Assembly: GCF_014137855.1 (NCBI RefSeq)
Contig: NZ_JACGWT010000002.1
Location: forward strand, 124,001-188,000
Source: Microlunatus kandeliicorticis
GTDB taxonomy: Bacteria > Actinomycetota > Actinomycetes > Propionibacteriales > Propionibacteriaceae
Length of the DNA: 64,000 bases
Direction: 5' to 3'
Shown here: positions 1,991 to 56,662 of the stretch, piece by piece
How positions within the stretch are numbered: position 1 is the first letter of the stretch
Layout: every line of letters starts with the position of its first letter
Program-made: the position numbers and the translations under genes
Notes under the pieces: generated by a model
Database searches by the model: none
Told to the model about the DNA's origin: nothing
What the model saw: only the letters and a program-made list of their open reading frames with translations

Positions 1991-4168
1991 TCAGACCAGT
2001 CCGGCCACCGTGCCGACGCTCGAGCCGGTGCCGGGCACCGGGTCCGAGGCGGGCAGGGCGAGCCGGAAGGTGGCACCCTCGCCGGGTCGGCTCTCGGCCC
2101 AGATCCGCCCGCCGTGCCGGTGCGCGATCGAGCGGCAGATCGCCAGCCCCAGCCCGGTCCCGCCCTTCTCGCGCGCGTCGGAGGAGTCGACCTGCTCGAA
2201 GCGTTCGAAGATCGTCTCGAGCTTGTCTCCGGGGATGCCGCGTCCGTGGTCGGTGACCCGGAACACCACCTCCGCGCCGCTGCTCCCGACCGCGACCTCG
2301 ACCCGGCCGCCGGGCTCGGAGAACTTGACGGCGTTCCCGAGCAGGTTGATCAGCACCTGGACGATCCGGTCGCCGTCGGCCTGGACGGTCCCCGCCACCG
2401 GCCCGACGACGATCTCCACCCGGTGGTCGGCGGCGGTCGGCCCCATCCCCTCGACCGCCTGCTCCACCAGCGAACGCGCCTCCCAGGCGGCGAACCGCAT
2501 CACCTCGGCGCCCGACTCGATCCGCTCGATGTCGAGCATGTCGTTGATCAACCGGGTCAACCGGTCCGCGCTGCGTACCGCGATCTCGATCAACCGGGTG
2601 CCCCGCTGGTCGAGATCGCCGGCCACGCCGCTGGCCACGATCCCCAGCGAGCCGCGGATCGCGGTCAGCGGGGTGCGCAGCTCGTGGCTGACCACGGAGA
2701 TGAACTCGTCCTTCATCCGCTCCACGGCGCGCCGCGCGCTGACGTCACGGAAGACCACCACCGCCCCGCTCAGCCGGTCACCCAACAGGATCGGGCCGAC
2801 CGCGAGCTCGACCGGGAAGGTGGTGCCGTCCGCCCGGCGGAACACGTCGGCCACCGTGTCGACCGGGACCCGCTCGGACAGCGCGAGCCCGATCGGGCAG
2901 CCCGCGCCGGCCGGGACGGCCTCGTGGTCGTGCAGCACCCGGCCCTCACGGGCACCGACCAGCTGGTCGGCCGCCCGGCCCAGCATCTGCGCGGCGGCCG
3001 GGTTGACGAAGGTGATCCGGCCGTCGGGATCGACCCCGAACACCCCCTCGGCCACCGCCGCGACGACCCGGCTGTTCTGATCGGCCAGCTGGCGGAACTC
3101 GTCGCCCCGGCGGCGGAGCTGGACCACCTGGTCCTCGAGGTCGTGGGTGAGCCGGCCGTTGTCCACGGTGAGCAGCACCTGGCGCAGACCGATCAGCACC
3201 AGCAGCAGGATCCCGGTGACCACCAGCACCGGGTCGGCCAGGCGTCCGGGCCAACTGACGGCGACCGCGATCGCGGCGGCCGTCGGCAGGTAGACGACCA
3301 CCGAGGTCACCGCCAGCGCTCGCTGGTCGGCCCGGTGCCCCCTCGTGTCCGCCGACGCAGCCGGGCGGTCCGCGCCGTCCGGGCGATCGGGCTCACGGAC
3401 CAGCGCGGCGAGCGCCATCAGCAGATAGCCCGCGATCCAGCCCACGTCGAGCACCGACCCGGAGGCGTACCGGCCGAGCGCCTCGAGGTAGTTGTAGGCG
3501 CCGTCGGCGCCGAAGTAGCAGAGGACGCCGAGGGTCAGCAGGGCCAGCCGTCCGCGGGTGCTCGGCCCGGCGCGGACCAGCGCGACCGCGGCCAGCGTCA
3601 GCAGTACGGCGTCGAGGACGGGGTAGGCGGTGAAGACCACCCGGCCGAGCATCGAGGTCCCGCGCGTGGTGACCGCCGGCAGCACCACCGACCAGGTGAC
3701 GAAGAACAGGCCGAGTGCTACCACCAGCCCGCTGAGCAGCAGCCGGAGCCGCGCCCCGGGGACCACGGGACCGACCGGCACCCGGAGCAGCCCGACCGCG
3801 AGCGGCACCGGAGCCAGCAGATAGAAGACGTCCGGCAGCCCGGGCGCGGCCACCCACTGCAGCAGGTGGGTGATCACCGCGTAGCTGCCCTCGGCGAGCG
3901 TCCACGACAGTCCCGCCAGCGCCACCCCCTGCCAGGTCCGCTGCCAGGGCGAGGGCGTCCTCGCGCGCCGACCGGCGGCGACGGCCAGCGAGGCGGCCGC
4001 CGGGACGGTGAGCAGATCGCTGAGCAGCTCGCGACCGGCCGCCGGGACCGACGCGGCGACCGTGACCAGCAGGTAGCCGAGCACGACGACGGCGGCACCG
4101 AGCGCGAAGACCGGGGCGGCGGACGGGCTCAAACGTGAGCGGGGTGGGTCGGCCGACGTCTCGACCAC
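1991..4168 (-). CDS. Membrane PAS sensor histidine kinase
   Basis: About 725 residues. Residues 15-330 form a multi-pass membrane region (roughly ten hydrophobic helices) of a kind used to sense membrane or small-molecule signals. A short coiled linker leads to a PAS domain (about 365-475, VDPDGRITFVNPAAAQMLG). The HisKA dimerisation domain has the phosphoacceptor His near residue 495 in SVVSHELRTPLTAIRG, and the HATPase domain has the N box (NLLGNAVKFS), DHGRGIPGDK and GGTGLGLAICRS. The GTG at 4168 is preceded by GGGAGG at 5-6 nt, so I prefer it to the longer open frame. No response regulator is adjacent, so it looks like an orphan kinase. The PRC-barrel gene is divergent. Confidence 0.88.
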   Translation of the reverse strand: MVETSADPPRSRLSPSAAPVFALGAAVVVLGYLLVTVAASVPAAGRELLSDLLTVPAAASLAVAAGRRARTPSPWQRTWQGVALAGLSWTLAEGSYAVITHLLQWVAAPGLPDVFYLLAPVPLAVGLLRVPVGPVVPGARLRLLLSGLVVALGLFFVTWSVVLPAVTTRGTSMLGRVVFTAYPVLDAVLLTLAAVALVRAGPSTRGRLALLTLGVLCYFGADGAYNYLEALGRYASGSVLDVGWIAGYLLMALAALVREPDRPDGADRPAASADTRGHRADQRALAVTSVVVYLPTAAAIAVAVSWPGRLADPVLVVTGILLLVLIGLRQVLLTVDNGRLTHDLEDQVVQLRRRGDEFRQLADQNSRVVAAVAEGVFGVDPDGRITFVNPAAAQMLGRAADQLVGAREGRVLHDHEAVPAGAGCPIGLALSERVPVDTVADVFRRADGTTFPVELAVGPILLGDRLSGAVVVFRDVSARRAVERMKDEFISVVSHELRTPLTAIRGSLGIVASGVAGDLDQRGTRLIEIAVRSADRLTRLINDMLDIERIESGAEVMRFAAWEARSLVEQAVEGMGPTAADHRVEIVVGPVAGTVQADGDRIVQVLINLLGNAVKFSEPGGRVEVAVGSSGAEVVFRVTDHGRGIPGDKLETIFERFEQVDSSDAREKGGTGLGLAICRSIAHRHGGRIWAESRPGEGATFRLALPASDPVPGTGSSVGTVAGLV

Positions 4169-4373
4169 CGACACCTCCCGGGTCACCGGCCGCACCGCCA
4201 GGACGGAGGATGCGGACGTACGGATCTGACGGTCGGCGGGCGGTCCCCGACCCGGCGCCGAGACGAGCGGGACCGGGTGGGTCTGACGCTCCGGCCCCGC
4301 CGATATCGTACGGCGTGGGACCTGCAGGCGGTCGATCCACGACCGCCGCCGACCGGGTGAAGGGTGGACCACG

Positions 4374-4730
4374 ATGCTCGAGGCCGAGGACATCCGGGAC
4401 TGGCGCGACCACGCCGTCGTCGACCAGACCGGGGCCAAGATCGGATCGCTGGAAGCGGTCTACTTCGACACCTCGACCGAGCTGCCGGCCTTCGCGACGG
4501 TCAAGGTCGGGCTGCTCAACGGCTCGCGGCTGATCTTCGTCCCGCTCGACGGGGCGACGGTCTCGCCCAAGGCGGTCAAGGTTTCGATTGACAAGAAAGT
4601 TGCCAAGGACGCGCCGGCGATCGACACCGACGGCGAGCTGCCCGCCTCCCTCGAGCCGGCGATCTACCAGCACTACGGGATGACCTACCAGGCCGGCGCC
4701 TCCGGCGAGCGCCGGCTCGGCCGCCGCTGA
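4374..4730 (+). CDS. PRC-barrel domain protein
   Basis: 118 residues. The N-terminal 70 residues match a PRC-barrel: IRDWRDHAVVDQTGAKIGSL, then VYFDTSTELPAFATVKVG and SRLIFVPLDGATVSPKAVKVS. PRC-barrels occur in RimM and photosynthetic reaction-centre H subunits; stand-alone actinobacterial versions have no settled function and are often stress-associated. The C-terminal 45 residues include a LPASLEPAIYQHYGM stretch and a basic tail. A GAAGGGTGG ribosome-binding sequence lies about eight bases before the ATG, and TATCGT near 4306 could be the -10. Transcribed divergently from the large histidine kinase. Confidence 0.8.
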   Translation: MLEAEDIRDWRDHAVVDQTGAKIGSLEAVYFDTSTELPAFATVKVGLLNGSRLIFVPLDGATVSPKAVKVSIDKKVAKDAPAIDTDGELPASLEPAIYQHYGMTYQAGASGERRLGRR

Positions 4731-4808
4731 CCCGAGCACCCCACGACGGGCTCGGGGCACCGGGTGAGGACTGCGCCCTGAGCTCGTCGAGGGGCGGGGC
4801 CGTCGCCC

Positions 4809-7124
4809 TCAGTCGCGACCGGCGGCCTTCTTGACCAGCGAGCCGAACGCCTCGAACAGGTGGTCCTCCGGCGTACCGAACGGGTTGTCGTCGACCAGGT
4901 AGGTCCAGGTGGCCGACGGTCGGCGCACCTTGGAGGCATCCTCGTCGAGCCCGTCCGCGGTGATCACCGCCGAGTCGAAGACCTCGACCGCGGCGTCGTC
5001 GGCGTCGCTGATCACGGTCCGGAAGGCCGCCTGCGCCTCGGCGTGGAAGGCGTGCAGCGGGGTCTGCCGCCCGAGCGCGCGGAGGTGGATCCCCTCGCGG
5101 AGGTCCTGGGCGAAGGCCAGGTGGTCGCTCCAAGCCTGGTCGAGGTGGAACAGGCACAGCGTCCGCGCGGCCGCGGCCACCGGCTCCTCCCCCAGCTCCT
5201 CGACCAACGCGTCCCAGCGCTCGGAACTGCGCGCCGCGATCAGGTCGGCCGCCGCATCGCCGGTCAGCAGCTGCTCACGGCGTTCGAGCACCGCGAGGCG
5301 CTGGTGGTGCAGCTGCTGGCTGTAGAGCCAGCTGTTGCGGTGCACGTCGAGCAGCTCGCCCTCACCGACCCGCTGGGCGTGCTCGACCTGGTGCTGCGCG
5401 GCGGCCGAGCTGATCCGTCCGGTCTCGTCGACCTGGCTGTCGCGGACCACGAACGAGGCGGTCTCCGGGTTGTCCTGCAGGCTGGTGAAGAACACCGACC
5501 CACCCGGGTCACCCTGGCGTCCGGCGCGCCCGCGGAGCTGGTCGTCGAGCCGTCGGGTCGGGTAGCGCCCGGTCCCGATCACCAGCAGACCGCCGAGCTC
5601 GGCCACCGCCTCCCGGTCGGCCTCGTCGGCCCCGCCGAGCCGGATGTCGACCCCCCGCCCGGCCATCTGCGTCGAGACGGTGACCGCGCCGAGCCGGCCC
5701 GCCTCGGCGATCAGCGTGGCCTCCTCGGCGTCGTTCTTGGCGTTGAGCACCGAGCAGTCGACCCCGGCCTCGACCAGCCGGTCGTGCAGCCGCTCGGAGG
5801 CGGCGACGTCGTGGGTGCCGACCAGGACCGGGCGTCCGGTCTCGTGCAGCTCGACGATCGCCGTGATCAGCGCCTGCTCCTTGTCGGCCTGGTCGACGTA
5901 GAGCCGGTCCTCCTCGTCGACCCGGATGTTCGGCCGGTGGGTCGGGATGACGCCGACCTCGAGCTCGTAGAACTCGCGGAGCTGCTCGGCCGCGGCCACC
6001 GCGGTGCCGGTCATCCCGCAGACCAGCGGATAGCTGCTGATCAACGCCTGGATGGTGGTCGAGTCGAGGATCACCCCGCGGCCGGTGACCGCGAGCTCCT
6101 CCTTGGCCTCGACCGCCGCGTGCAGACCGTCGGGCCAGCGCTGCAGCTCGGCGACCCGGCCGCGGTTGAGGTCGATCAGCTTCACCTGGCCGTCCTCGAC
6201 CAGGTAGTCGACGTCGCGGGTCAGCAGCACCTGCGCGTGCAGCGCGATGTTGACCGCGGTGAGCACCCGCTCCTGCCCGGCGGCGTAGAGGTCGTCGATC
6301 CCCAGCAGCTGCTCGACGTGCTGCAGCCCGGCCTCGGTGAGGTTGGCGCTGCGCCGGTCCCCGCCGATCTCGATGTCGGTCTCCGGATCGAGCTGCTCGA
6401 CGATCCGGGCCGCCTCGGAGGCGTCGTCGCCCTGCTCGTCGCTGCCGGCCAGCACCAGCGGCACCTTGGCCTCGTCGATCATCACCGCGTCGGCCTCGTC
6501 GACCACGGCGACGTCGAGCGGGGTCAGCACCCGCTGGTCCGGATCGGTGCAGAGCCGGTCACGGAGGGTGTCGAAGCCGACCTCGCTGATCGAGGCGTAG
6601 CAGACGTCGGTGGCGTAGGCGGCGCGGCGCTGCTCCGGCGTCGCGTTCTGGGTGACGTGGCCGACGCTGATCCCCAGCAGGGTGAAGATCGGGCCCATCC
6701 ACTCGGCGTCGCGGCGCGCCAGGTAGTCGTTCACGCTCAGCACCTGCACCCGGCGTCCGCGGGCGACGAACCCGGTGGCGGCCAGCGCGCCGACCATCGT
6801 CTTGCCCTCGCCGGTGGCCATCTCGATCACCTGGCCGGCGAGCAGCCCGGCGGCGCCGAGCAGCTGCTCGTCGTAGCTGCGCTCGCCGACGGCGCGTTCG
6901 GCAGCCGAGCGCCCGATGGCCAGCAGGGTGGCCAGGTCGTCCGGGGTCAGCTCGTCGGTGACGAACTCGCGGAGCACCGCGTACCGCTCGGCCAGGCCGG
7001 CGTCGTCGAGGGCGTCGATCTCGGCCGCGAGCCGGTTCGCCGCGTCCACCGCCGAGGAGTGCTGACTGACGTCGGCGGTACCGGGCCGCCCGATCCAGCG
7101 CCGGAACGACTGCCGCAGACCCAA
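4809..7124 (-). CDS. secA2: Accessory Sec translocase ATPase SecA2
   Basis: 771 residues, shorter than housekeeping SecA (about 900 or more) and without the zinc-binding C-terminal tail, as in actinobacterial SecA2, which drives export of a restricted set of proteins. NBD1 has EMATGEGKT (Walker A, residues 101-109) and VVDEADAVMIDEA (Walker B, about 207-219). NBD2 contains GRPVLVGTHDVAASERLHDRL, VSTQMAGRGVDIRLGG and QLRGRAGRQGDPG, the latter two being the motif that binds nucleotide across domains. The start codon is TTG at 7124, supported by AGAGG seven bases upstream. It is followed downstream on the same strand only by the chromosome region of the PRC gene, so no accessory export partner (SecY2, Asp proteins) is adjacent. 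Confidence 0.93.
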   Translation of the reverse strand: MGLRQSFRRWIGRPGTADVSQHSSAVDAANRLAAEIDALDDAGLAERYAVLREFVTDELTPDDLATLLAIGRSAAERAVGERSYDEQLLGAAGLLAGQVIEMATGEGKTMVGALAATGFVARGRRVQVLSVNDYLARRDAEWMGPIFTLLGISVGHVTQNATPEQRRAAYATDVCYASISEVGFDTLRDRLCTDPDQRVLTPLDVAVVDEADAVMIDEAKVPLVLAGSDEQGDDASEAARIVEQLDPETDIEIGGDRRSANLTEAGLQHVEQLLGIDDLYAAGQERVLTAVNIALHAQVLLTRDVDYLVEDGQVKLIDLNRGRVAELQRWPDGLHAAVEAKEELAVTGRGVILDSTTIQALISSYPLVCGMTGTAVAAAEQLREFYELEVGVIPTHRPNIRVDEEDRLYVDQADKEQALITAIVELHETGRPVLVGTHDVAASERLHDRLVEAGVDCSVLNAKNDAEEATLIAEAGRLGAVTVSTQMAGRGVDIRLGGADEADREAVAELGGLLVIGTGRYPTRRLDDQLRGRAGRQGDPGGSVFFTSLQDNPETASFVVRDSQVDETGRISSAAAQHQVEHAQRVGEGELLDVHRNSWLYSQQLHHQRLAVLERREQLLTGDAAADLIAARSSERWDALVEELGEEPVAAAARTLCLFHLDQAWSDHLAFAQDLREGIHLRALGRQTPLHAFHAEAQAAFRTVISDADDAAVEVFDSAVITADGLDEDASKVRRPSATWTYLVDDNPFGTPEDHLFEAFGSLVKKAAGRD

Positions 7125-7278
7125 CGCGCTGCCTCTCTGCCGACTCCCCCGGACCTCGGCGCGCCCGACCGGACGCGTCCGCTCGCACGATAGCTCAGCC
7201 GCCGGAACCGGCCGCTGTGCTCGGCTCCCCGCCCCGGCCTCGCGCGCCGGCAGGAGATGAAGGGTGAGTACGCGGGGG

Positions 7279-50694: not shown

Positions 50695-50740
50695 CAACGG
50701 GGGTGATCCGCACCGAGGTCGGTGCGGATCACCCCCGTTG
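50695..50740. terminator. Bidirectional terminator, 20-bp perfect stem
   Basis: CAACGGGGGTGATCCGCACC (50695-50714) pairs completely with 50721-50740 around a 6-base loop. It lies between convergent genes. Confidence 0.88.
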
Positions 50741-50758: not shown

Positions 50759-53008
50759 TCAGGCGGGCAGCGCGGTCAGCTTCTGAGCCGGGAGCACCCG
50801 GCGACGAGCCACCGCCACCACCGAGGCGGCCAGGCCGACCACCAGCCAGCCGAGCAGGACCGCGACGGCGTGGCCGGTGCCCGAAGCGCCGGTGACCACC
50901 GCGCGCAGCCCGTCCAACCCCGGCGACAGCGGGAGCACCGGGCGCAGGTCGTCGATGAAGCTGGGCACCGCACTGGTCAGGCTGGCTGCAGCGACCACGG
51001 CCAAGGCGAGCGCGGAGAGCAGCCGGCCGAAGCCGCCGAACCAGGCGGTCAGCGCGTGGTTGACCACCGCGAACGTCACCGCGGCGAAGACCAGGAACCC
51101 GAGCGTCGCCGCGTAGTCGCCGAACGACAGGTCGAGCAGCTGCTGGAGCACCACCGAGAAGACCACCGCCTGCACGGCCCCGATCGCCGCGCCCGGCGCC
51201 AGCGCCTCGAGCGCGAGCCGGACCGTCGACTTGGCCGAGCCGAGCACGTCGGACGGCACCGCCCGGACCACCAGGTAGGTGACCAGGCCGCCCAGCCAGA
51301 GCGCGAGCAGCGCCAGCAGCGTGGTCGTCGTGGTGTCGGAGAACAGGCTGTCGGGCTGCTGGTGCTCGACCGGCGCAGCGACCACCGAGGCCAGCGTGGT
51401 CCGGTCGGACTTCGTGTAGGTCGGGATCTGCTTCGCGCCCTTCTCGAGCCCGTCGGCGAGCTTGGTGGTGCCGTCGGCCAGCTGGTCGCCGCCGTCGCTG
51501 AGCTTGACCAGCCCGGTGTGCAGCTGGTCGACCCCGGCCGAGGACTTCGACACCCCGACCGCGAGCTGGTTCGCCCCGGTCGAGAGCTTGCCGACCCCGG
51601 TGGCCAGCTTGTCCGCCCCGGTGGCGGTCTTGGCGATCCCCGTGCTTAATCCGGTCAGTCCCGTCGAGAGCTGATCCGTACCGGCTGCGAGCTTTCCGAG
51701 GCCGGTGGCGAGACTCGAAGTGCCGGTCGCGGCCTGGTGAACACCGGACGCGAGACCATCGCCGCTGGTGGCCAACTGCTGCCCCCCGCTGACGAGCTTG
51801 CCGGCATTGGTGCCCAGAACGGAGGCGCCGTTGGCGAACAGCCGGTACGAGGCGATCACACCATCGGGCTGACCCTTCGGTGAGATCTGATCCTTGCCGA
51901 AGATGGACTGAGATGCCGCCTTGAACCCGGCGGCGAACACGGCGCACTGCTGCGGATCGGAGATTTGGGCAGGAGCGCAGAGGGCTTGGTCCGGGGCGTT
52001 CTGAATCTGCTCCGCCTGCTTGGTCGCCTCGGTCTGCGCCGTTTGCAGCCCGCCTGCATAGGTACTGATCCCGCTGCCGAGCTTCCCCACGTTGTCCACG
52101 TAGGTGCCGACACCCTGGGTGTACTGCGCGGTGCCGCTGTCGACCTTCTTCAGCCCTCCGGCGAGCTTCTTCGCTCCGTCTGCCGATGACTGCGTTCCAT
52201 CGGCCAACTGTCCGACCTGCTTCGGCAAGCTCTTCGTCCCGGCGGCCAGCTGGTCGAGTCCGTTCGCCAGCTGCGTCGTCCCGGTCGAGGTCTGCGCGAT
52301 GCCGCCGGCGAGCTGGCTGCTGCCGGTGCTGAGCTGGGCCATCCCGTCGGCGAGCTTGCCGGCGCCGGTGGCGGTCTGGTCGAGTCCGCTGCTCAGCTGG
52401 GTGGCGCCGTCGGCGAGCTTACCGGCCCCGTTGGCGACCGTGGTGAACTGCTTCTTGGTGTCGTTGAACCCGAGGTAGATGTTCTCGAGGTAGTTCTGGG
52501 TCAGCGTCTTGTTCAGGGTGCTGACCGCGACGCTCGAGATCGCCTGCGCCACCGCGGGGTCGGTGACCCCGGCCACCTGCGAGGTCTGCACCTGCAGCGT
52601 GGCGCGCTGGGCGTCGTCGGCCTTGTTCTTGGCGTAGCTGGTGGCGTCGGCGCTGAAGCTCTTGGGGATCGTCACCACCGCGGCGTACCGGCCGTCGGCC
52701 AGGCCCGAGGCGGCGTTGGCCCGGTCACTGAGCACCCAGTCGAAGTTGACCGCCGCCTGCTTCTTGATGTCGTCGCTGCCGTTGACCAGCCCGCCGGCCA
52801 GCTGCCGACCGAGCGGCACCAGCTGGCCGTTGAGCCGGACCGGGTCGTCGAGGTTGACCACCGCGGCCTGCACCCGGGCCAGCCGGTCCTGCGAGTGGTA
52901 GGTCGCGGCCAGAAAGCCACCGGCCACCAGCAGCGGGACCAGCAGGACACCGAGCAGGGTGATGATCCCCGCCTTCCGGGTCGTGCGGCTGCGCTCGATG
53001 CTGAACAT
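50759..53008 (-). CDS. YhgE/Pip-family membrane protein
   Basis: 749 residues. One N-terminal helix (AGIITLLGVLLVPLLVAGGFLAA) is followed by an extracytoplasmic region of about 470 residues and a C-terminal block of about six helices of ABC-2 type (from LLALLALWLGGLVTYLVV). The outside region consists of many degenerate repeats of the form GxxxLAxGxxQLxxG. A central insert (about residues 280-390) interrupts them and contains two Cys in QALCAPAQISDPQQCA. The family includes Pip phage receptors and YueB/EsaA-type proteins of type VII secretion loci. The gene lies 71 bases behind the MMPL gene on the same strand and probably works with it. Confidence 0.88.
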   Translation of the reverse strand: MFSIERSRTTRKAGIITLLGVLLVPLLVAGGFLAATYHSQDRLARVQAAVVNLDDPVRLNGQLVPLGRQLAGGLVNGSDDIKKQAAVNFDWVLSDRANAASGLADGRYAAVVTIPKSFSADATSYAKNKADDAQRATLQVQTSQVAGVTDPAVAQAISSVAVSTLNKTLTQNYLENIYLGFNDTKKQFTTVANGAGKLADGATQLSSGLDQTATGAGKLADGMAQLSTGSSQLAGGIAQTSTGTTQLANGLDQLAAGTKSLPKQVGQLADGTQSSADGAKKLAGGLKKVDSGTAQYTQGVGTYVDNVGKLGSGISTYAGGLQTAQTEATKQAEQIQNAPDQALCAPAQISDPQQCAVFAAGFKAASQSIFGKDQISPKGQPDGVIASYRLFANGASVLGTNAGKLVSGGQQLATSGDGLASGVHQAATGTSSLATGLGKLAAGTDQLSTGLTGLSTGIAKTATGADKLATGVGKLSTGANQLAVGVSKSSAGVDQLHTGLVKLSDGGDQLADGTTKLADGLEKGAKQIPTYTKSDRTTLASVVAAPVEHQQPDSLFSDTTTTTLLALLALWLGGLVTYLVVRAVPSDVLGSAKSTVRLALEALAPGAAIGAVQAVVFSVVLQQLLDLSFGDYAATLGFLVFAAVTFAVVNHALTAWFGGFGRLLSALALAVVAAASLTSAVPSFIDDLRPVLPLSPGLDGLRAVVTGASGTGHAVAVLLGWLVVGLAASVVAVARRRVLPAQKLTALPA

Positions 53009-53079: not shown

Positions 53080-55875
53080 TCAGGCCGGGGCGCCGACCAG
53101 GTCGGCCGGGCGGTCGAGCACCCGCGGCGACCGCGGGCCCTCGAGCAGCCCGGGCGCGACGCCGGCGGGCAGCAGCTGGGAGAGCTCGTCCGGGCGGTCG
53201 GTGGCGATCACCAGACTGCGGTCGGCGCGCGCGGCCATCAGCTCGCCCAGCACCGCGGCCACCGCGGCGCGGTCCGTCTCGGGCAGCTCGCCGGCGTGGT
53301 CGATCACCACCAGCTGCACCCGCGACCGGACGGTCCGGCGCAGCTGGGCGACGAAGCGCTCGGCCCGGGCGTCGAGCACCACCGACCGGCGCCGGACCGC
53401 GCTGCCCTGCTGCGGCAGCACCAGCCCGAGCGCCTTGACCTCGCCGGCGGACGGCTTCATCCGGCCGGTCAGCGTCCAGAGCAGCGCGGTGGTCGCCGGC
53501 CCGGACGGGACCGCGACGACCTGGCCGGGCATCAGCTCGACGTCGATCGGCCCGAAGCTGCGGTCGCCGACCCGCCCGGCCAGCCCCTCGGCGTAAACCA
53601 GCGCCGGGTGGTTCGGGACGGGCCAGTCGGCCTGCTTGACCTGGTGGGCCAGCGCCTCGCCCTCGACGTCGAAGGTGGGCAGCCGCTCGTCGATCCAGCG
53701 CGGCAGCTTCCAGGCGGTGCGGCCGAGCAGCGCGAGCACCGCCGGCACCAGCGTCATCCGGACGATGAAGGCGTCGACGAAGACGCCGACCGCCAGCCCG
53801 AACGCGATGGTCTTGATCTCCGCCGTGCCCTCGGGGACGAACGCGGCGAACACCGCGAACATGATCACCGCGGCGGCGACGACCACCCGCGAGCTGGCGA
53901 CGAACCCGGTCTCGATGGCCCGGTGCGGGTCACCGCTGCGCAACCCGCCGCCGTGGACGAAGTCCTCGCGGATCCGGGAGACCAGGAACACCTCGTAGTC
54001 CATGGCCAGCCCGAAGAGGATCCCCATCAGCAGGATCGGCAGGAAGCTGATCACCGGGCCGACGTGCTCGACGTTGAGCGGACCGGCCAGCCAGCCGTGG
54101 ATGAAGACCAGGCTGGTCGCGCCGAAGCTGGCCAGCACGCTGAGCAGGTAGCCGATGGTCGCCTTGAGCGGGACGGCGATCGAGCGGAACACCATGGTCA
54201 GCAGCACCAGCGAGAGACCGACCACCAGCACGCCGAACGGCAGAAGCGCCGAGCCGAGCCGGTTGGAGACGTCGATCTGGATGGCGGTGATCCCGGTGAC
54301 CGCGGTGTCGACGCCGTACTCGGCCTTGAAGTGCGGCTCGAGAGCCCGGATCCGCTCGACCAGGTCGGCGGTCGCGGGCGCGTCGGGCGCGGTGGTCGGG
54401 ATGACCTGGACGATGCCGGTGTCCGCGGTCTGGTTGGGTGTGGCGAGCGGGACGCTGGCCACGCCGGGCAGGGCGCGGATCTCGTCGCCCATCTTGTCCA
54501 TCACGCCCAGCGGGTCGTTCGAGCCGACGATCTTGGCGGTGACGATCAGCGGGCCGTTGTAGCCCGGGCCGAAGTGGTCGGCGACCAGGTCGTAGGTGGT
54601 CCGGGCCGGGGTGCCGACGTCGGCGGTGCCGTTGTCGGGCAGCGACAGCCGGAGCGACTGCGCCGGCAGCGCCAGCGCGCCCAGACCGATGACGACGATC
54701 GCGATGGTCAGCGCCGGCACCTTGGTGACCAGCCGGACCCAGCTGCGGGCCAGCTGCGGACGCTGCTTCGCCGCGACCGGGACGGCGTGCTGCGCGGGCT
54801 GGCCGTTCGCCGCGGCGGCTGCGGCGGCCTTGCGGGCCGGGCGCGAGCCGGCCGGCTTCGGACGCAGCCGCTCGCCGGCGAAGGCGAGCAGCGCCGGGAG
54901 CAGGGTGAGCGCGATGACCACGGCCACCGCGACGCCGACCGCGGCGGCGATGCCCATCGTGGTGAGGAACGGAATGCCCGCGACGGACAGCCCGGCCAGC
55001 GCGATCATCACGGTGAGCCCGGCGAACACCACCGCCGAGCCCGCGGTGGCCACCGACCGGGCGATCGACTCGCCGACCTCCATCCCGTCCCGGAGCTGGT
55101 CCCGGTGTCGGGAGGTGATGAACAGGGCGTAGTCGATGCCGACCGCCAGCCCGAGCATCAGCGCCAGCATCGGGGTGGTCGAGCTGACCGTGACCAGCGC
55201 GGTCACCGCCACGATCCCGGCCATGGTGACGCCGACGCCGAGCAGCGCCGTCAGGAGCGGCATCCCGGCCGCCCGGAGCGAGCCGAGGGTGAAGAACAGC
55301 ACGATCAGCGCGACCACCACGCCGATGCCCTCGGTGGCCGAGATGTGCACCGAGTTCATCTGGAAGGCGTCGCCGCCGACCGAGACCGTCGAGCCGGGCA
55401 CGGCCGCCTGGATGGCCCGGCCCTCGGCCTCGAGCCGGTTCTGGAGCGCGGTGGTCACGCCCTCCCGGTCGACCGAGAGCTGGACGCTGATGATCGCCGC
55501 CGACCCGTCGTCGGAGATGACGTTCTTGATCCGCTGGTCGAACGGCGAGCTCACGGTGTCGACCAGGTCGATCTTCTTGAAGGCGGCGACGCCGTCGAGG
55601 ATCGCCTGCCGCTCGTCGCCGGTGCGGACGCTCTGCCCCTCGGGCGCGACCACGATCACCTGGGCGCCGGCCCCGCTGACCTGCGGGAACGTCAGCTTGA
55701 GCGAGTCCAGAGCCTGCTGCGACTCGGTGCCCGGCAGCGAGAAGGAGTCCTCGAAGTTCGCCCCGGACAGGCCGGCCGCGCCGCCGAGGACGACCAGCAC
55801 GGCGAGCCAGGCCAGCAGCACCCGCAGCCGGCGCCGGATGGCGAGCTTGGCGAGTCCGTACAGGTAGGAGGACAC
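53080..55875 (-). CDS. MMPL-family transporter fused to a degenerate ABC ATPase-like domain
   Basis: 931 residues. Residues 1 to about 720 are a standard MMPL/RND pump: helix 1 at 15-35, extracytoplasmic domain, SVHISATEGIGVVVALIVLFF, a second half after a basic loop with AAAAANGQPAQHA, and two sets of six helices. Residues about 758-910 read like an ABC nucleotide-binding domain: LVYAEGLAGRVGDRSFGPID, VELMPGQVVAVPSGPATTAL where Walker A should be (no GKS/T), TLTGRMKPSAGEV, and VQLVVIDHAGEL as the Walker B remnant. No LSGGQ signature is seen. GTG at 55875 with AAGGAG upstream. Operon with the YhgE/Pip gene; divergent TetR. Confidence 0.9.
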   Translation of the reverse strand: MSSYLYGLAKLAIRRRLRVLLAWLAVLVVLGGAAGLSGANFEDSFSLPGTESQQALDSLKLTFPQVSGAGAQVIVVAPEGQSVRTGDERQAILDGVAAFKKIDLVDTVSSPFDQRIKNVISDDGSAAIISVQLSVDREGVTTALQNRLEAEGRAIQAAVPGSTVSVGGDAFQMNSVHISATEGIGVVVALIVLFFTLGSLRAAGMPLLTALLGVGVTMAGIVAVTALVTVSSTTPMLALMLGLAVGIDYALFITSRHRDQLRDGMEVGESIARSVATAGSAVVFAGLTVMIALAGLSVAGIPFLTTMGIAAAVGVAVAVVIALTLLPALLAFAGERLRPKPAGSRPARKAAAAAAANGQPAQHAVPVAAKQRPQLARSWVRLVTKVPALTIAIVVIGLGALALPAQSLRLSLPDNGTADVGTPARTTYDLVADHFGPGYNGPLIVTAKIVGSNDPLGVMDKMGDEIRALPGVASVPLATPNQTADTGIVQVIPTTAPDAPATADLVERIRALEPHFKAEYGVDTAVTGITAIQIDVSNRLGSALLPFGVLVVGLSLVLLTMVFRSIAVPLKATIGYLLSVLASFGATSLVFIHGWLAGPLNVEHVGPVISFLPILLMGILFGLAMDYEVFLVSRIREDFVHGGGLRSGDPHRAIETGFVASSRVVVAAAVIMFAVFAAFVPEGTAEIKTIAFGLAVGVFVDAFIVRMTLVPAVLALLGRTAWKLPRWIDERLPTFDVEGEALAHQVKQADWPVPNHPALVYAEGLAGRVGDRSFGPIDVELMPGQVVAVPSGPATTALLWTLTGRMKPSAGEVKALGLVLPQQGSAVRRRSVVLDARAERFVAQLRRTVRSRVQLVVIDHAGELPETDRAAVAAVLGELMAARADRSLVIATDRPDELSQLLPAGVAPGLLEGPRSPRVLDRPADLVGAPA

Positions 55876-55937
55876 CGGATCTCCTTGCGCGGCCCGTCGC
55901 GGGCGTTCGGCGGTTCCGTGCCGGTCGGCACGGGTCG

Positions 55938-55968
55938 ATACAGTACTGTATTCAATACACCGGCGTAT
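55938..55968. promoter_or_regulatory. Paired TetR-type operators between MMPL and TetR genes
   Basis: ATACAGTACTGTAT (55938-55951) is a perfect 14-bp palindrome. ATACACCGGCGTAT (55955-55968) is a second dyad with one mismatched pair and the same ATAC/GTAT ends, 17 bp centre to centre. Both lie in the divergent region, 63 bp or more from the MMPL start and 68 bp or more from the TetR start. Confidence 0.75.
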
Positions 55969-56035
55969 CCGGATGCCGGCGACCGTGACCCTGGCCACAA
56001 GCTGTGTCGGTCCGGAGAGGAAGATCGGACACCTG

Positions 56036-56662
56036 ATGACCAGCACCAGCGCCGCACCCCCCGTGAGCGGCCGGCGGGCGGCGACCCGGGAACGGCTGAT
56101 GAACGCCGCGGTCGGCGTGTTCGCCGAGCGCGGGATCATCGGGGCCAGCGTCGAGGAGATCTGCGAGGCCGCCGGGTTCACCCGCGGCGCCTTCTACTCG
56201 AACTTCGCCGACAAGGACGAGCTGGTGCTGGCCATGCTGCGGCTGCAGATGGAGCACCAGTACGCGGCGGCGCAGGCGGCGATCGACGTGATCGCGGAGA
56301 ACGGGCCGCGCGGCGACCCGGACGCGGTGCTCACCGCCGCGCTCGACACCCTCGAGCACCACCTGCACCCCGAGCGCGAGTGGGTGCTCGCCCAGCACGA
56401 GCTGCTGCTCTACGCCGCCCGCCGACCGGCCGTGCGGGACGCCTACCGGGAGTTCAGCGACGGCTACCTCGAGCAGTTCGGCGCGTTGATCGCGCGCGGC
56501 GTCGAGGCGTCCGGGCTGAGCCTGGCCATCCCGTTCGGCGACGCGCTCGAGCTGCTGACCTCCTGCCACGTGCAGGACCAGCTCGACCGGCTGTTCGACC
56601 AGGGCGGCGAGTCCCGCCGGTTGCGGATCCTGCTCCGGTTGCTCACCCGGCCCGCGGGCTGA
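56036..56662 (+). CDS. TetR-family transcriptional regulator
   Basis: 208 residues. HTH: RRAATRERLMNAAVGVFAERGIIGASVEEICEAAGFTRGAFYSNFADKDELVLAML, with the GFTRGAFYSNF recognition helix common in TetR regulators of efflux pumps. The C-terminal domain (HPEREWVLAQHELLLYAARRPAVRDAYREF) is the usual ligand/dimer part. Almost certainly represses the divergent MMPL/YhgE operon through the paired palindromes between them. The ATG at 56036 has no good ribosome-binding sequence nearby (GGAGAGGAAG is about 15 bases away), so the start is moderately certain. Confidence 0.9.
   Translation: MTSTSAAPPVSGRRAATRERLMNAAVGVFAERGIIGASVEEICEAAGFTRGAFYSNFADKDELVLAMLRLQMEHQYAAAQAAIDVIAENGPRGDPDAVLTAALDTLEHHLHPEREWVLAQHELLLYAARRPAVRDAYREFSDGYLEQFGALIARGVEASGLSLAIPFGDALELLTSCHVQDQLDRLFDQGGESRRLRILLRLLTRPAG

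Follow-up and report, generated by a model that had tools for sequence, protein, structure and literature searches.

The C-terminal tail of an MMPL family pump encoded in the analysed window (64,000 nucleotides of the Microlunatus kandeliicorticis genome) is a degenerate ABC nucleotide-binding domain (NBD), and the next gene downstream encodes a YhgE/Pip protein. The recurrence of such an apparently dead motor next to a YhgE/Pip gene across actinobacteria suggests a plug that unites two normally separate transporter classes. The features of the locus are listed below; A3 denotes the profile of the tails of 31 MMPLs from Propionibacteriaceae, the family of the window.

53083..55875, minus strand: gene for the MMPL-pseudoNBD fusion; 931 aa, begins with GTG, TGA stop at 53080-53082
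53707..55875, minus strand: MMPL/RND pump part with two MMPL modules (PF03176, E 2.7e-81)
53656..53706, minus strand: conserved linker LPRWIDERLPTFDVEGE; closes the MMPL part, with the fusion point just after it
53083..53601, minus strand: pseudo-ABC NBD, ~175 C-terminal residues; ABC-beta/aromatic-loop part, crippled P-loop and Walker B part, helical subdomain missing
53479..53517, minus strand: what is left of Walker A, VAVPSGPATTALL; lacks the Gly and Lys and is shorter than the P-loop of relatives (A3)
53413..53469, minus strand: best conserved stretch of the tail, TGRMKPSAGEVKALGLVLP; invariant G-R, G and P (A3)
53284..53319, minus strand: Walker B-like strand VQLVVIDHAGEL; Asp retained, His in place of the catalytic Glu
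53182..53217, minus strand: switch region SLVIATDRPDEL, without the H-loop His
50759..53008, minus strand: YhgE/Pip gene, 749 aa, proposed partner; membrane protein of the ABC-2 type that includes a long stretch of heptad repeats
56036..56662, plus strand: divergent TetR-type regulator (TetR type read from sequence)
55938..55951, no strand: perfect 14-bp palindrome ATACAGTACTGTAT, candidate TetR operator, in the 160-bp gap between the TetR and MMPL genes

The fusion gene and its YhgE/Pip partner

The MMPL match falls in a minus-strand open frame (53083-56193; PF03176, E 2.7e-81) whose likely start codon is the GTG at 55875, preceded by AAGGAGATCC, so that the product is 931 aa long. Residues 1-723 form a standard pump with two PF03176 modules, followed by the linker LPRWIDERLPTFDVEGE, in which P, W, P, D and EG are invariant columns of profile A3. 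This linker also terminates MMPLs that apparently lack the NBD and match profile positions 1-45 only. The ~190 residues beyond it have no Pfam match; the LVYAEGL...PG and PGQVVAV pieces of the tail map to 53524-53601 and 53509-53529, respectively. Relatives of the TetR-type regulator are divergently encoded at most of the fusion loci examined, and the palindrome ATACAGTACTGTAT is present in a single copy in the window. In Saccharopolyspora hirsuta, YhgE/Pip (F1721_04135) and MMPL (F1721_04140) genes with neighbouring tags are induced by cholesterol 3.8- and 3.3-fold (PMC9782250). A perfect inverted repeat, GGGGGTGATCCGCACCGA..TCGGTGCGGATCACCCCC (50699-50736), just past the YhgE/Pip stop in the window, is a possible transcription terminator.

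YhgE/Pip proteins occur widely, are for the most part unexplained and tend to be regarded as orphans. The one in the window matches TIGR03061 (E 1.7e-30) and TIGR03062 (E 2e-22), contains 12 xxxLxxG stretches and exceeds the cut-off of the ABC-2 family PF12698 (ABC2_membrane_3; E 1e-9, 38.4 bits against 31.6); relatives reach 76.8 and 86.2 bits with this family (E up to 3e-24). Because YhgE/Pip matches ABC-2 membrane proteins, the tail takes the place of the ATP-binding subunit of the YhgE/Pip system. In agreement with this, one paper (PMC3924187) notes putative ABC-2 superfamily transporters among the homologues of the Pip family. A search by sequence found no solved structure of a YhgE/Pip relative, with matches only to coiled-coil/repeat stretches.

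A YhgE/Pip partner was proposed in the original prediction and is supported by gene order: YhgE/Pip is next downstream at 53 of the 54 fusion loci, the one exception being cut by a contig end (33/34, including the exception, and 20/20 in the two sets that make up the 54). The separate ABC and YhgE/Pip genes to which that prediction also referred do exist but represent this same pair in its unfused state. The best non-fused matches of the tail profile from f3, another family of the order, are mostly ABC-like proteins of 240-380 aa, and all 28 separate pseudo-NBD genes read in context lie directly upstream of YhgE/Pip. One of these pairs is in the window's own genome, where another YhgE/Pip gene is accompanied by a pseudo-NBD gene that is not fused (L180, G000:C2:527000-540000, frames 3869-6895 and 6031-7137, minus strand), in which the Walker A motif GLTGSGKS is intact and LSGGQ is missing.

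The association also holds in reverse. When YhgE/Pip genes above the NCBI cut-off were taken from 118 genomes of the class, with the NBD playing no part in the choice, all 25 that were fetched had an NBD directly upstream, either as a gene of its own or as the C-terminal part of an MMPL; none of the 5 proteins below the NCBI YhgE/Pip cut-off had one. Given this pairing in both directions, YhgE/Pip and the pseudo-NBD make up the two halves of an ABC-2-like system in this class. The tail in the window clusters with the other YhgE/Pip-linked NBDs and immediately precedes YhgE/Pip; in this lineage, the ABC-like partner of YhgE/Pip is the pump tail, not a separate gene.

In the NBD tree, fused and separate forms come together, apart from the 29 canonical NBDs of the window's own genome (support 100); this tree contains three changes between the fused and separate states as well as long branches and, taken alone, is compatible with one fusion or several. 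The YhgE/Pip tree, in which fused and separate systems are split by a single change (support 99), favours a single fusion event. Distances among the NBDs track those among the YhgE/Pip proteins (r 0.89 over 78 pairs). This correlation partly reflects the shared descent of neighbouring genes, and adjacency of genes by itself does not prove a complex. Two long frames resembling natural MMPL-NBD-YhgE/Pip triple fusions were rejected as proof of one, as both look like frameshift read-throughs: in L056 (5362-10989, 1876 aa), the NBD end seems to run on in another frame and the junction is arginine/proline-rich text, and in L188 (4404-9242, 1613 aa), the middle of the NBD is in another frame.

Residue loss in the pseudo-NBD

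The reported loss of GKS/T and LSGGQ from the tail is confirmed and extends further, to a shortened P-loop and the disappearance of the helical subdomain. In the position of the Walker A motif GxxxxGK[S/T], the tail has the shortened VPSGPATTALL, and the Walker B strand reads LVVIDH, with the Asp present and the Glu replaced by His. In the clade of the window, which has no helical subdomain, the columns of the Walker A Lys and the Walker B Asp are separated by a median of 65 residues versus ~122, and the LSGGQ signature is missing because this entire subdomain is missing. What the window tail retains is the P-loop core along with the GRM...G...LP stretch after the Walker A helix. In one subgroup of tails (L061, L059, L060 and L047), several residues are inserted after the Walker A helix, ahead of the next conserved part.

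These losses are not peculiar to the window, as indicated by a residue census of 55 fusions and 28 separate YhgE/Pip-linked relatives (n=83) against the 29 canonical NBDs of the same genome. The canonical domains contain the Walker A Lys and the second signature Gly in 29/29 cases, the LSGGQ-like motif in 26/29, the catalytic Glu in 28/29 and the switch His in 26/29. Among the YhgE/Pip-linked domains, by contrast, both the LSGGQ-like motif and the switch His are absent throughout (0/83 each) and the catalytic Glu is found twice (2/83). The Walker A column holds Lys in 14/55 fusions and 4/28 separate relatives, and the complete GxxxxGK[S/T] is retained in 13/55 and 4/28, respectively; the Walker B Asp persists in 71/83 (47/55 for the fusions alone). 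The 15 fusions that retain the helical subdomain have Lys in 8 and Glu in 1, with neither an LSGGQ-like motif nor the His in any. The 40 that lack this subdomain, including the one in the window, have Lys in 6, no Glu and no His, and their signature region is gone. The 28 separate relatives have Lys in 4 (Arg in 23), Glu in 1 and no LSGGQ-like motif or His. To judge by these motifs, the entire YhgE/Pip-linked group looks catalytically dead.

The degeneracy was not caused by the fusion because the unfused relatives are already degenerate: none has LSGGQ or the switch His, and the catalytic Glu and the Walker A Lys are nearly always absent. The original prediction, according to which an ABC gene was fused to the pump and then lost catalysis, thus stands with respect to the fusion and the motif loss and fails with respect to the order of events. 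Sequencing error as the source of the missing Walker A is rejected given that the loss is family-wide; the homologues with a complete Walker A that might have exposed such an error do exist, but what they reveal is loss lineage by lineage.

Since 13 of the 55 fusions keep the complete Walker A motif, with L052 and L062 as examples of intact tails, nucleotide binding is possible in some lineages, and one could imagine the tail as a nucleotide sensor in which ATP bound without hydrolysis gates the pump or YhgE/Pip according to the energy state. The same motif in 4 of the 28 separate relatives, the substitution of Arg for Lys in many others and the Walker B Asp of 47/55 fusions would all fit such a role. 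It is nevertheless unlikely, considering that the P-loop in the window is shortened and has neither the Gly nor the Lys, and that the helical subdomain, which closes over ATP, is lost in 40/55 fusions. Another scheme would have the tail dimerise with an intact ABC ATPase from another locus, giving a half-dead NBD pair that still uses ATP. NBD heterodimers with one dead site exist in asymmetric ABC exporters, which lends this scheme a precedent, and the genome of the window has 97 ABC_tran matches. Yet the two-gene operon includes no canonical ABC gene, and the fusions without the helical subdomain have lost the signature motif required by a partner site, which makes such a dimer quite improbable.

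Spread, selection and ancestry of the tail

Other MMPLs with the same tail, for which the original prediction proposed a search, were found in 156 of the 198 Propionibacteriaceae genomes, nearly always in a single copy, as well as in other actinobacterial families. Within Propionibacteriaceae, named relatives bearing the tail include Tessaracoccus, Arachnia and one Propionibacteriaceae MAG, and the tail is open in 118 of the 141 good-quality genomes and in 25 of the 29 genera. Elsewhere in the class, MMPL-NBD fusions are present in at least the families f3, f20, f39, f45, f46 and f47. A second, highly diverged MMPL-NBD copy in one genome (G019; L068, 7134-8147, plus strand) has a long acidic extension after the NBD, followed by YhgE/Pip.

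The dN/dS ratio of the tail ranges from 0.08 to 0.50 in 17 pairs of related genes and is well below 1 in every one of them; the tail is therefore under purifying selection. In 16 of the 17 pairs, this ratio exceeds that of the pump, by up to about three times. Such faster evolution fits a loose adaptor and equally a weakly constrained one. Together with the disappearance of the key ABC motifs, it could also be taken to indicate a fading relic of an old fusion with no current role, but this interpretation is very improbable in view of the intact frames in most good genomes of the family, the low dN/dS of all 17 pairs and the invariant G-R and G...P residues.

By itself, the window tail is a weak ABC match (CcmA, E 0.004; an MlaF-type chain in PDB, E 0.0025) that falls below the Pfam threshold, and a PHROGs search gave nothing for it. 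Profile A3 matches many ABC NBDs in PDB at E ~1e-6, and the f3 tails, which are longer than that of the window, match Pfam ABC_tran with E values of 3.5e-16 and 2.7e-14 (L062 and L063). The A3 and f3 tails align end to end (hhalign probability 100%, E 5.5e-44), and all seven of the separate relatives tested are over the ABC_tran cut-off. Because the longer-tailed relatives match ABC_tran, the ABC origin of the tail is secure, and the ABC-like order of elements originally read after the last MMPL helix is borne out as that of a degenerate NBD.

Of two structure models, the first, of the window tail (6 sequences), was set aside as too weak, with a pLDDT of 49.5; Foldseek placed ABC chains first, none of them under E 0.001. 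The second, of the related L069 tail, has a pLDDT of 62 overall and 85-92 in the core and consists of a P-loop alpha/beta core for which, at the middling confidence of this model, AAA+ cores are the best fold matches and ABC chains rank below. Thus, the better model shows a P-loop domain without telling ABC from AAA+, whereas the sequence identifies the tail as an ABC domain, and the AAA+-like look of the bare core is due to the loss of the helical subdomain. An ABC-looking P-loop domain of another class (AAA+/STAND-like), as could be surmised from the fit of the model to AAA+ cores and from AAA_16 being the top Pfam match of L047, is hardly credible when full-length relatives exceed the ABC_tran cut-off (E 3.5e-16 to 9.3e-7), as do all tested separate relatives, the profile-profile link is so strong and the missing subdomain accounts for the AAA+ likeness.

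Proposed coupling and comparison with known systems

The best explanation is a docking adaptor, because an NBD that is not expected to burn ATP is encoded together with an ABC-2 membrane protein wherever examined. Most likely, the tail serves as the ABC subunit of the YhgE/Pip system and couples the proton-driven MMPL pump to it. The tail is expected to lie in the cytoplasm, at the C-terminus of the pump, and should not act as an ATPase. It would dock on the cytoplasmic face of YhgE/Pip in the way that an NBD engages its ABC-2 partner, and would thereby hold, and perhaps move, YhgE/Pip with the proton-driven conformational cycle of the pump. The pump and YhgE/Pip together could export an envelope lipid or a similar molecule under the control of the divergent TetR regulator. 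By analogy with the MMPL pumps of other actinobacteria, which export envelope lipids, a lipid or lipoglycan is the probable substrate. The homology, gene pairing, residue loss and selection were observed directly in the data described here; physical docking, coupling to proton flow, the substrate and the regulation are the predicted parts of the scheme. A bolder and more tentative proposal, to which we give slightly less than an even chance, is a hybrid class of actinobacterial transporters in which the ABC-2-type protein YhgE/Pip is driven by a proton-powered RND pump in place of ATP hydrolysis, with the dead NBD as the mechanical coupling.

Neither the fusion nor the NBD-YhgE/Pip pair is described in the literature searched, which largely left out subscription papers; the components are known, and the combination is new as far as the searchable literature goes. 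The actinobacterial YhgE/Pip proteins gain a constant partner and prove to follow the plan of an ABC transporter whose motor is dead; in many families this dead motor is joined to an RND pump. Should the proposed coupling prove real, it would mean that two transporter superfamilies powered in different ways have merged, and simple gene removals could then test what YhgE/Pip does.

The arrangement can be compared with several known systems. In asymmetric ABC exporters and in CFTR NBD1, a degenerate NBD has likewise been retained as a structural or regulatory part after the loss of catalysis; there, however, the sister NBD is active, whereas the operon described here encodes no active NBD and the helical subdomain is missing. 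ABC-2 type transporters such as DrrA/B and NodI/J similarly combine an NBD-like protein with an ABC-2 membrane protein encoded alongside it, but the NBD here is joined to an RND pump and has neither the Lys nor the signature, the catalytic Glu or the switch His. The partner gene, with matches to TIGR03061 and TIGR03062 and a weaker one to EsaA, is akin to the YhgE/Pip and EsaA family; EsaA and the firmicute YhgE/Pip proteins are not known to possess an NBD partner, in contrast to the actinobacterial YhgE/Pip tested here, which have one. Finally, the MMPL/HAE RND transporters (MmpL3, ActII-3), which are proton-driven, share with the fusion the two MMPL modules and the way in which the transmembrane part ends (VRMxLVPAVxxLLG..AWWLPxWL); the fusion differs from them in its C-terminal tail, a pseudo-ABC NBD, and in the pairing of its gene with YhgE/Pip.
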